Assembly: GCA_025454525.1 (NCBI GenBank)
Contig: JALOOG010000008.1
Span: 1 to 64,000, forward strand
Source of the DNA: Anaerolineae bacterium
Lineage (GTDB): Bacteria > Chloroflexota > Anaerolineae > Aggregatilineales > Phototrophicaceae
DNA: 64,000 nucleotides
Direction of reading: 5' to 3'
Positions 1 to 6,682 of the stretch are shown in pieces. The notes under the pieces are model-generated. The model did not search any database. It was given only the letters and a program-made list of their open reading frames with translations, and had not been told where the DNA came from. Made by a program: the position numbers and the translations under genes. The first letter of the stretch is position 1. Each line of letters begins with the position of its first letter.

Positions 1-275
1 GCCGGACTGTTCACCGCAAAGCGTCCGATCATCTGATTGACCACCACTTCGCTGTCTAAACGAATTTGAATAAATTGACCATTGAGATCGACAGCGGTTT
101 CGAGTGTAAAGATCAATCCCATGTATTCCGCCTCATTATTGGTCATCGGTGGCAACGTGCGATTGCCTAAAAACACCACTTTGGACCAACGGTCAAGTGC
201 AATCACGCCTGCTCCCGCCCGTTGAGGTTGAACTGATCCATCCGCATAGAGGAGCAAATGTTCATAGCGATCCAT
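1..275 (-). CDS. RNase H-like protein (RVT_3/RNase HI fold), 5' part only
   Basis: The gene runs off the left edge, so only the N-terminal ~91 residues are present. From the ATG at 275 the protein reads MDRYEHLLLYADGS and has the RNase H order of acidic residues: Asp in YADGS, Glu in NNEAEY and Asp in RLDSE. This matches RNase HI/RVT_3 proteins, which cut RNA in RNA-DNA hybrids or are unassigned relatives. The start is chosen by homology; the Shine-Dalgarno (GGCGG) is weak. The same frame stays open upstream to 434 because it is continuous with the transposase remnant, so a longer hybrid product is possible. Fold confident; exact subfamily and start uncertain. Confidence 0.72.
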   Translation of the reverse strand, partial: MDRYEHLLLYADGSVQPQRAGAGVIALDRWSKVVFLGNRTLPPMTNNEAEYMGLIFTLETAVDLNGQFIQIRLDSEVVVNQMIGRFAVNSP

Positions 276-716
276 ATAGGTGGGGCCGCCGTCACTGTAA
301 TCAAGTATTGCTTGCCACTGGGTTTGATCACAGCTCAGGCTCACCGCCCAACCGACAATATAACGGGTGGCACGATCTCCCAAAGTCAAGTGGTAGGCTT
401 CGTTTTTTTCTCTGCGATGAAGGTGTAAGTTCATCCTGCTCAATCACCGCTTCCGGTTGCGACGGGTGATCGGGCAAAGAGTTAATATGGGCGGCGATCC
501 AATTCGCCACCGCCTCATACACCATGCCGAGATGACAGGTGATGCGTCGTAAGTTCATCCATTCCCACACAAGCTAAGAGCTTGCTGACGCAATTGTTCC
601 GAATAGCCTTATTGTTTGGGTTGCGGCGTATAGCGCGGCTGGTAAGGTTGGCACTGTAGGCTACGACCGACTTTCACTTGGCGTGTTGTTTTTTGGCAGT
701 GAGGACAGGTATTCAT
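276..716 (-). pseudogene. Decayed IS1-family transposase (InsA zinc-ribbon/HTH plus start of DDE domain)
   Basis: Read on the minus strand from the ATG at 716, this gives a zinc-ribbon start (MNTCPHCQK, then a QCQPY remnant and RYTPQPKQ). An in-frame TAA follows. The same frame then continues with GYSEQLRQQALSL and a helix-turn-helix segment (MNLRRITCHLGM to VANWI), and then VIEQDEL, the first catalytic Asp region of IS1-type DDE transposases. A run of seven A after SSQR shifts the frame; with six A it would continue NEAYHLTLGDRATRYIVGWA up to YSDGG. The 3' part of the transposase is missing and the RNase H gene follows at once. One nonsense change, one homopolymer frameshift and a 3' truncation make it a fossil. 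No terminal inverted repeats were identified. Confidence 0.7.
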
Positions 717-925
717 CACCTCTTTTTAACCTATATACCTTCTTTTAGCCACTCCCAAACTAAATAAATCTTGTAAGACATGCCCATCTGTTTGTCTTGC
801 ATCTCACGCTAGTAGTTAACTTCTCACCGATGTTTAATCTAAGATATGACCAATGTCCCCATTAGATTTAAAAGTTATGCGGTATCATACGGGGTACGTA
901 ACGGCGTAACATTAAAGGAAATGAT

Positions 926-2407
926 ATGAAAATTCTGTTTCGTCTTGTGCTAATTGCGATCGTCTTGACATTGGGCCTGTTACCCTTGGCTGCCCAAGAG
1001 GACTCCGCTTATGTGCGTGCCGGGCATTTTGCCGCCGACGCACCGGCCGTAGATGTTTATGTTAACGAAACCTTGGTTGTTGAAAATTTGAGCTATGGGG
1101 AAGTTTCGGTGTGGATAGCCGTCCCAGTCGGTACGGTCAACGTTGCCGTAGTTGCCACAGGCGACCCGTTGGAAGATGCAGTTTCCACCTTGCGCGATGT
1201 GATCCTTGAAGCGGATAATTTTGTCACCGTTTCGGCGATCGGATTGTTGGATGAAAACACCTTCCGTTTGCAACCTGCCTTTGAAGACTATCAAACCCCG
1301 ATTGAATCCGGTGTTACCCGTTTGACCTTGTTCCATGCGATTCGCGGTATGACAGGCGTTGATCTGGTTCGGAATGGCCAAGTTGCGTTGCTAAGTACCG
1401 TCACCTATCCCGATTTAGCCTTAGGCAATGACGGTGCGGCCAGCGTGGAAGCCGCTTCTGGAATCTATGACTTTACCATCACCGGCGCGGGGCGGATCAA
1501 CGCGGTCTTAGCTGAAGTACCTGAATTGGAATTGCCTGCTGGCGCGTATGTTTCAATTTTTGTCTATGGGGAATTGGATGCTGAAGAGATCACCGTTGAA
1601 GTGGTGACGGCCGAAGATGTGGAAGCGGTCATGTCGGGTGAGATGTTAACCGATGATACCGACACCACGCCTGATGAACCCACTGCAACCGAGGAACCGG
1701 CCGATACCGATACCGCTGATACTGATGTTCCGGCGCGTGAAGCGGAATTTGTCTACACTGACGGCGATGCCGCTTATATCCGCGCCGCGCACATGGTTGA
1801 AGATGCGCCGTCCGTAGATGTCTATTTCGACGGTCTGCTCACCGGGGTACAAAGTTTAGAATTTACCGATGTCACTGATTGGTCAGCGATCCCCGCCGGA
1901 ACGTATGATGTTGCGATCGTGCCTGCGGGTGAATCTGTGGACAGCGCTGTGTTAACCTTAAACGATGTCGAATTTTTAGCCGACTCGTTTACGACATTGA
2001 CCGCGTTAGGCGCATTAGAAGATGACACCTTCCGCGTGCAAGCGGCGATCGAAGATTATGCCACCCCGATCGAGGCAGGCGCGACTCGTTTGACCCTGTT
2101 CCATGCGATCCGCGATATGAGCGGTGTCGATCTGGTACGCAATGGCCAAACGGTGCTGTTAAGCACAGTGACTTTCCCGGATCCGGCGTTGGGGAATGAC
2201 GGTGCGGCGAGCGTAGAAGCGGCGATTGGCACGTATAACTTTACGATCACCGGCGCAGGACGGATTAACGCGGTGTTGTTAGAGATCCCCGAAGTGGAAT
2301 TACCCGCAGGGGCGTATGTCTCAATCTTCGTCTACGGCACATTGGATGATGAAAACTACGTCATCAAAACCGTAACCGCCGATGACATTGAAGCTTTAAC
2401 CGAGTAA
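926..2407 (+). CDS. Secreted tandem DUF4397 protein
   Basis: A 493-residue exported protein. It has a Sec signal peptide (residues 1-24, ending PLAAQ) and two homologous DUF4397 units at about 28-232 and 283-490. These are joined by an acidic Thr/Asp/Pro-rich linker (about 240-270). DUF4397 is a beta-sandwich found in secreted proteins of Chloroflexota, Bacteroidota and Firmicutes; its role is unknown. The second halves of the two units are very similar (both contain TRLTLFHAIR, GVDLVRNGQ and AGAYVSIFVYG), offset by 255 residues, so the gene grew by internal duplication. Ribosome site AAAGGAAATG lies just before the ATG. It stands alone and ends at a perfect hairpin. No anchor motif is seen, so it is probably released or wall-associated. 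Confidence 0.85.
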   Translation: MKILFRLVLIAIVLTLGLLPLAAQEDSAYVRAGHFAADAPAVDVYVNETLVVENLSYGEVSVWIAVPVGTVNVAVVATGDPLEDAVSTLRDVILEADNFVTVSAIGLLDENTFRLQPAFEDYQTPIESGVTRLTLFHAIRGMTGVDLVRNGQVALLSTVTYPDLALGNDGAASVEAASGIYDFTITGAGRINAVLAEVPELELPAGAYVSIFVYGELDAEEITVEVVTAEDVEAVMSGEMLTDDTDTTPDEPTATEEPADTDTADTDVPAREAEFVYTDGDAAYIRAAHMVEDAPSVDVYFDGLLTGVQSLEFTDVTDWSAIPAGTYDVAIVPAGESVDSAVLTLNDVEFLADSFTTLTALGALEDDTFRVQAAIEDYATPIEAGATRLTLFHAIRDMSGVDLVRNGQTVLLSTVTFPDPALGNDGAASVEAAIGTYNFTITGAGRINAVLLEIPEVELPAGAYVSIFVYGTLDDENYVIKTVTADDIEALTE

Positions 2408-5527: not shown

Positions 5528-6682
5528 ATGGATATTCTCATATCATTTCTCGATGTTTTGTTACATCTGATCGTTGTTCTTATGGGTTTGATTATCGTAT
5601 TAGGCACGATGACTTCCGCGCTCCGTTCATTTGTGTTGGCACGTAGCGCCCGTGATGCGATCACCTCGCTGGTGTTTCGCACCAATCGACGGATCTTTAA
5701 CCTCTGGTTGGTGCGCTGTGATACTTATGAAGATCGGGATCGTATCATGGCGATGTATGCGCCCATCAGTTTGATCTTGTTACCCTTGACTTGGCTGGCC
5801 TTCGGCACGATCGGCTTTACCTTGATCTATTGGGGGTTAGGGGTTGGCACGCTAGAACGTGCGATGATCATTAGCGGCTCATCGATCATGACGTTAGGAT
5901 CAGCGACCGATGATCGCACTCTTTTTTTTATCATCGAGTTTATTGAAGCCGCCTTTGGGATCATCCTCACCGCGGTATTGATCTCCTATTTACCGACGAT
6001 GTATAGCGCTTTTTCGCGTCGTGAAACCTTGGTGACGATGTTAGAAGTCCGTGCTAGCGCGCCACCATCCGCTCTCGACATGATCATCCGCGCCCACAGC
6101 ATTCGCGGGTTAGAGGCCTTAAATGAAATTTGGCGCAATTGGGAACAATGGTTCGCCGAGATCGAAGAGAGTCATACCTCATTACCTGCATTGGTCTTTT
6201 TCCGCTCCACCAAACCCGGGCGATCATGGATTACCGCCGCGGGCGCGGTCTTAGATGCCGCCAGTTTACATGAGGCGGTCTTAGATGTCCCCATCAACCC
6301 AGATGCCCGCTTGTGTATTCGGTCCGGGTTTTTGGCGTTACGCCATATCGCCGATTTTTTCTTGATCGATTATGATCCCGATCCGCATTTTCCCGCACAT
6401 CCGATCAGCATCAGTCGCATCGAATTTGATGAAGTTTACGATCAACTCAAAGAGGCGGGGGTGCCGGTGAAACCGGATCGCGATCAATGTTGGTTAGATT
6501 TTGCTGGTTGGCGCGTCAACTATGACACGGTATTGTTGCGCTTGGCCGCATTGACCTTAGCGCCTTATGCGCCATGGTCATCGGATCGCTCGTTACCCGG
6601 AAGCAACTTTCGCCCGTTTTCATTATGGGTCTCGCAAAAAGACAAAAAAATGCACGTCAAATCATCTACCGCTAAACGTTGA
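5528..6682 (+). CDS. Membrane protein with potassium-channel-like pore region
   Basis: 384 residues. Hydrophobic helices lie at about 3-28, 78-104 and 131-157, with a re-entrant-looking segment at 111-128 (SGSSIMTLGSA) just before the last helix. This layout (helix, P-loop, helix) resembles two-transmembrane ion channels, and STMTLGS-like sequence sits where TVGYGD normally is, but the GYG filter itself is absent. The C-terminal ~220 residues are soluble and unrecognised. I would call it a divergent ion-channel-like protein; ion selectivity cannot be assigned. Its 3' end overlaps the convergent aldehyde dehydrogenase by 11 bp. Confidence 0.6.
   Translation: MDILISFLDVLLHLIVVLMGLIIVLGTMTSALRSFVLARSARDAITSLVFRTNRRIFNLWLVRCDTYEDRDRIMAMYAPISLILLPLTWLAFGTIGFTLIYWGLGVGTLERAMIISGSSIMTLGSATDDRTLFFIIEFIEAAFGIILTAVLISYLPTMYSAFSRRETLVTMLEVRASAPPSALDMIIRAHSIRGLEALNEIWRNWEQWFAEIEESHTSLPALVFFRSTKPGRSWITAAGAVLDAASLHEAVLDVPINPDARLCIRSGFLALRHIADFFLIDYDPDPHFPAHPISISRIEFDEVYDQLKEAGVPVKPDRDQCWLDFAGWRVNYDTVLLRLAALTLAPYAPWSSDRSLPGSNFRPFSLWVSQKDKKMHVKSSTAKR

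Follow-up and report, generated by a model that had tools for sequence, protein, structure and literature searches.

The route by which RNA becomes an inserted spacer in CRISPR systems associated with a reverse transcriptase (RT) is not settled. In Marinomonas mediterranea, a group II-like RT fused to Cas1 works together with Cas1 and Cas2, and spacers are taken from RNA. The authors of that study discuss, as one conceivable alternative, that RNase H digests the RNA strand and a second strand is then synthesised, a scheme at odds with the tails observed (PMC11014452). Clade 9 of the RT-CRISPR systems, as outlined in the open passages of Toro et al. 2017, consists of Chloroflexi systems in which the RT is separate from Cas1, and complete operons were unavailable for this clade (PMC5541045). 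An RNase H gene in RT-CRISPR loci is not named in the open passages of PMC5513706, PMC6013744, PMC8934634, PMC6452270, PMC8102632 or PMC6753606. Among open-literature titles and abstracts, we found no printed description of an RNase H in RT-Cas1-Cas2 loci. The genome comparisons reported here indicate that RNase H is a conserved partner of one RT-Cas1-Cas2 lineage, apparently undescribed as far as open titles, abstracts and passages show.

We analysed a window of 64,000 nucleotides from an Anaerolineae bacterium. The window starts at base 1 of contig C113 (64,067 bases), so that its first base is the end of this contig, and the genome assembly comprises 5.24 Mb in 230 contigs (97% complete, a tool figure). 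The first 91 codons of an RNase H gene lie here on the minus strand (positions 3 to 275), cut by the contig end. The encoded fragment matches Pfam RVT_3 above the cut-off (E 3.1e-10), falls just under the cut-off for PF00075 RNase_H (25.0 bits against 25.8) and is 73% identical to the protein of locus L040. Type 1 RNases H have four catalytic acidic residues, DEDD. In alignment A6, D18, E56 and D80 are invariant over 11 rows and D130 is nearly invariant; the window gene keeps three of the four expected catalytic residues, and the fourth position lies beyond the contig end. Homology to the nearest relatives starts at YEHLLLYADG, and the longer N-terminus of the relatives is absent in the window. 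The differences between the window and L040 at the three codon positions are 0.24, 0.10 and 0.58, with no gaps over 86 codons. Because dS is saturated, dN/dS against the two nearest relatives was uncomputable, and the position differences cannot place selection before or after the break.

We assessed the affiliation of this gene with a 71-row RNase H tree (34 linked to CRISPR genes, 36 unlinked, and the window), built by a quick method from few columns. The window falls in a starred set (97) with eight linked rows from its own family, its nearest rows being L023 and L025 (highest identity 72%). The linked rows were not recovered as one clade on these 71 rows, which show two or three label changes. 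Its position on the tree places the window gene with CRISPR-linked RNases H. A housekeeping RNase H had also been considered and was rejected, because the tree groups the window with linked rows.

The setting of the gene is conserved in family relatives. A profile search found the RNase H in 9 of 98 family genomes, our own included, and in all eight relatives it lies beside cas1. A group II-like RT is present in every one of the five relatives whose contigs reach that far, the other three loci (L023, L026 and L029) being cut off, and cas2 is labelled in six of the eight loci and was aligned in a seventh. The order of the cluster is GTPase, RT, cas1, in some cases a gene for a RemA-like protein, RNase H and cas2, and the genes are almost contiguous or overlap: the RemA-like gene of L041 extends to 5993, the RNase H gene spans 5971 to 6423 and cas2 starts at 6427. 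PADLOC identified the RT, Cas1 and Cas2; the RNase H and RemA-like proteins submitted to it gave no hit at E≤0.01. With an RT beside cas1 and cas2, the locus of the relatives can be classed on its gene content as an RT-containing CRISPR adaptation module.

The small RemA-like protein (PF04025) is labelled in four of the eight loci (L022 to L025; for example, L022:8433-8711, L024:10089-10406 and L025:5493-5771), and a GTPase-like gene stands just before the RT (L025:2638-3609, L027:3587-4543 and L043:2771-4012). CRISPR arrays were found in three of the eight loci (L022, L024 and L027). Matches to Csx23, CARF and WYL lie near some loci, as does a TIR protein whose match to SAVED is weak; such neighbours may point to a type III setting. 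At L022:9450-9830 and L024:7142-8035, a Csx23 match is found beside the cluster and, close to the arrays, the TIR protein with its sub-threshold match to SAVED.

We extended the analysis to a class sample of 396 genomes, of which at least 74 carry Cas1 of the same kind (E≤1e-80), at 78 places or more. These 78 loci were retrieved together with flanks of at most 5 kb per side, shorter where a contig ended, and searched with profiles (E≤1e-5). Of the 41 RT-bearing loci, 24 had RNase H no more than 5 kb from cas1, against 1 of the 37 RT-less loci; this sole exception, L133, starts at a contig edge inside cas1, on the side where the RT would be. The Fisher value for this association, 6.4e-8, does not count independent events, because RNase H tracks one Cas1 lineage and the corresponding pair test is without power. 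The GTPase (24 of 41 against 0 of 37) and the RemA-like protein (13 of 41 against 0 of 37) were confined to RT-bearing loci. Arrays were not commoner with RNase H, as judged with a simple finder: they accompanied 10 of the 24 loci that have both RT and RNase H, 7 of the 17 that have an RT but no RNase H, and 23 of the 37 that have no RT.

Gene order varies across the class, RNase H preceding the RT in L135, L136, L137, L141 and L162 and following cas1 in other loci. The RT profile is divided into two separated blocks, as if by an insert or interruption, in L136, L137, L141, L130 and L135, and in four of these (not L130) RNase H precedes the RT. In L194 (G364) and L195 (G247) cas1 is split into two profile matches, and cas1 of L112 (G291) contains an internal TAG; these other modules seem to be decaying too, or to contain sequence errors.

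When RNase H itself was the query (E≤1e-25), it was found at no fewer than 36 places in at least 35 class genomes. Of these places, 28 have RT, cas1 or cas2 in view, 7 are unlinked, and the remaining one is the window. A draw of 400 genomes from the phylum yielded the RNase H in at least 97 at the same threshold (E≤1e-25), and all 29 new phylum loci that we inspected were unlinked within 1.5 kb. Thus, the score of an RNase H is not enough to assign it to the CRISPR type.

The Cas1 tree places all RNase H-bearing loci in a single 33-row set (99), which is made up of 24 loci carrying both RT and RNase H, a further one with RNase H whose RT side is cut, and 8 with RT and no RNase H. In five of these eight (L118, L124, L134, L169 and L172) a contig end falls where RNase H might otherwise be found; in the remaining three (L113, L115 and L131) RNase H is absent in full view. 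A second RT-bearing Cas1 group, of nine loci, is without RNase H. The Cas1 tree offered three independent pairs for an RT/RNase H test, which has no power at that number. On the distribution across this tree, we read the RNase H link as a lineage trait with few losses, not as a rule for all RT-CRISPR systems.

In the window, none of the usual upstream partners stands before the RNase H gene. At the joint (positions 276 to 277, minus strand), placed by comparison with sibling copy L003 and with the RNase H genes of relatives, the start codon at 275 directly abuts the left part of a decayed IS1-like element (277 to 756, minus strand). The element is cut within its transposase at 277, where L003 continues as transposase, and its right end is absent from the window copy; its left end at 756 is supported by an end at 756-758 common to the matches of siblings L002, L005 and L006. 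Adjoining this left end is a gene for a 493-aa protein with DUF4397 domains (926-2407; E 3e-38). In the eight family relatives, the RNase H gene stands behind cas1 or a RemA-like gene and never behind a transposase. The first-pass annotation had set against its own reading the case of relatives with a clean RNase H promoter and no transposase upstream: in none of the eight does the gene follow a transposase, although they carry it in an operon and not behind a private promoter.

The IS1-like element is more heavily damaged than it first appears. Its zinc-finger part (609 to 716, minus strand) runs from an ATG at 716 to a nonsense TAA at 611-609, and alignment with L002 and L006 shows that 18 nt are absent near 664-658. 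Sibling alignment and three-frame reading place 1-nt deletions, on the same strand, at 558/559 (frame f2 to f1) and 427/428 (f1 to f0), and the run of seven A at 403-409, which takes f0 to f2, is a third 1-nt deletion relative to the siblings. The zinc finger is accordingly read in f2, the helix-turn-helix part in f1 and a few residues before the run in f0, after which f2 continues into RNase H. The copy thus bears three 1-nt deletions, one 18-nt deletion and one nonsense codon. The first-pass annotation, which described a decayed transposase with a single nonsense codon and a single frameshift, was right about the decay, the stop and the A run, and counted one frame change where there are three; it had also overlooked the contig end, the deletions at 559/558 and 428/427, and the 18-nt gap.

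Eight further matches to window positions 1-1200 exist in the same genome. Seven of these sibling copies were read in three frames, and each proved to be broken or incomplete; in the eighth, L008, the match covers just 52 bases. An IS1 transposase comprises a zinc ribbon, a helix-turn-helix and a DDE core. Sibling pieces match the NCBIfam IS1 model NF033558 at positions 1-49 and 52-111, in the correct order, with 27.3 and 30.9 bits (E 3.1e-6 and 2.4e-7) against a whole-protein cut-off of 100, and the third, catalytic sibling piece gave no match to this model. Because the matches lie far under the cut-off, we call the element IS1-like. With a 63-residue query piece, it was detected in 1 of 98 family genomes, its own, and in none of the 97 others at E≤1e-6. 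IS1 elements use a programmed -1 frameshift at an A run. The run is 7 long in the window and in L002, 6 in L003, 8 in L004 and 9 in L007; L007 stays in one frame through the run, save for a nonsense codon upstream of it, which favours a single ancestral frame at this point as far as the copies can be compared.

That the frame following the A run proceeds without a stop into RNase H, as had been claimed, is correct: a single open frame takes in the ATG at 275 and runs off the contig. This frame is open for 56 codons upstream of RNase H, back to a stop at 445. At the stop density of the window, a random frame would remain open over this length with p about 0.07, and chance alone would put one frame in three in register with RNase H. 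The in-frame join is therefore weak evidence of anything and most likely fortuitous. By eye, we saw no clear ribosome-binding motif before 275.

Three accounts of the joint were weighed. The first-pass annotation had proposed that loss of one A would create a transposase-RNase H hybrid, and such a loss does join the open reading frame at 570-328 to the RNase H frame; the product, however, would carry an out-of-frame stretch before the run. A real protein made by slippage at the seven-A run finds some support in the frame after the run being open through RNase H, but two further frame breaks and a nonsense codon lie upstream, the transposase is cut inside its catalytic part, the length of the run drifts between copies and no relative has the arrangement. 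We rejected a functional slippage fusion on the strength of the additional lesions, the truncation and the lack of a counterpart in relatives, and regard such a protein as extremely improbable. Plain decay, which had been offered as another option, is supported by the broken and partial sibling copies and the A runs of 6 to 9. The joint might instead be an assembly chimera, in which reads from an IS copy were misjoined to the RNase H locus close to the end of the contig, with an intact true locus elsewhere. The joint is 277 bases from the contig end (base 1), the IS copies of contigs C86, C118, C123 and C169 reach a contig end or stop a few bases short of one, and an exact 27-base word is common to the window and L003. 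Against this, any exact word that window positions 241-330 share with the RNase H loci of three relatives is shorter than 10 bases, so that, as judged from these relatives, there is no obvious word to misjoin on. We consider a chimera unlikely. The joint is of little consequence as a transposon joint, being an ordinary scar of decay at a contig end, or possibly an assembly artefact.

We then asked what else of the module is present in this genome. No Cas1 was found at E≤0.01, in a search that was positive in all five control genomes. The best RT matches were 9.0e-17 and 1.1e-15, against 6.5e-173 or better in each of three controls, and a close RT is thus lacking. Searches run without a control found neither Cas2 nor the remainder of the RNase H gene in this genome. 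Either the module is gone from the genome except for the RNase H piece, or the rest is missing from the assembly or the bin. What remains in the window appears to be the remnant of an RT-Cas1-RNase H-Cas2 adaptation module. A deletion or rearrangement could have formed the joint, placing the IS1-like element, cut within its transposase, against the start of RNase H, and the usual upstream partners of RNase H (RT, cas1 and often the RemA-like gene) would have been lost from this genome. We think it probable that the window end is the scar of a broken CRISPR adaptation locus, in whose intact counterparts in relatives the RNase H serves in removing or trimming an RNA strand. The scar reading is weakened because the assembly is fragmented and the joint lies near a contig end, where a chimera is possible and the cas genes may be unassembled or unbinned.

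For the intact cluster, we propose that the RT would copy RNA into cDNA, giving an RNA/cDNA hybrid, that the RNase H would remove or trim the RNA strand of this hybrid, and that the DNA prespacer would then be completed and inserted by Cas1-Cas2. We tentatively put forward, as something a little short of an even chance, that within one RT-CRISPR lineage of this Chloroflexi class an RNase H of its own serves as a dedicated enzyme of adaptation, often accompanied by a GTPase and a RemA-like protein; together they would form a retrovirus-like, self-contained memory route, which in the window has been dismantled with an IS element at the break. Alternatively, the RNase H may simply sit beside the RT-cas1 genes, as a passive or general neighbour, and contribute nothing to spacer acquisition. 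Its tracking of one Cas1 lineage, which deprives the counts of independence, would agree with this, as would a pair test left powerless by having three pairs, a second RT lineage that manages without RNase H, and the abundance in the phylum of similar RNases H outside CRISPR loci. The link has nevertheless persisted in many families even as the order of the genes changed, and we hold a passive neighbour to be possible, if somewhat doubtful. A CRISPR lineage with a linked RNase H makes the route by RNA-strand removal testable by mutation of a single gene.

The RNase H described here resembles the RNase H domain of Rv2228c and other type 1 RNases H. The best structural match of the linked type in a profile comparison is that domain (PDB 3hst; E 2.1e-27, positions 15-141 of 153), which is not known to be encoded in a CRISPR cluster. 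Among RT-CRISPR systems, clade 9 is alike in its Chloroflexi hosts and separate RT, a likeness by description only, and an RNase H gene goes unmentioned in the open passages on it (PMC5541045). In the Marinomonas mediterranea system the RT is fused to Cas1, whereas here the RT has its own gene and is accompanied by a linked RNase H gene (PMC11014452). A set of RT, Cas1, Cas2 and RNase H could turn RNA into CRISPR memories, and by analogy the very route that was discussed for Marinomonas might operate in a lineage that has an RNase H of its own.
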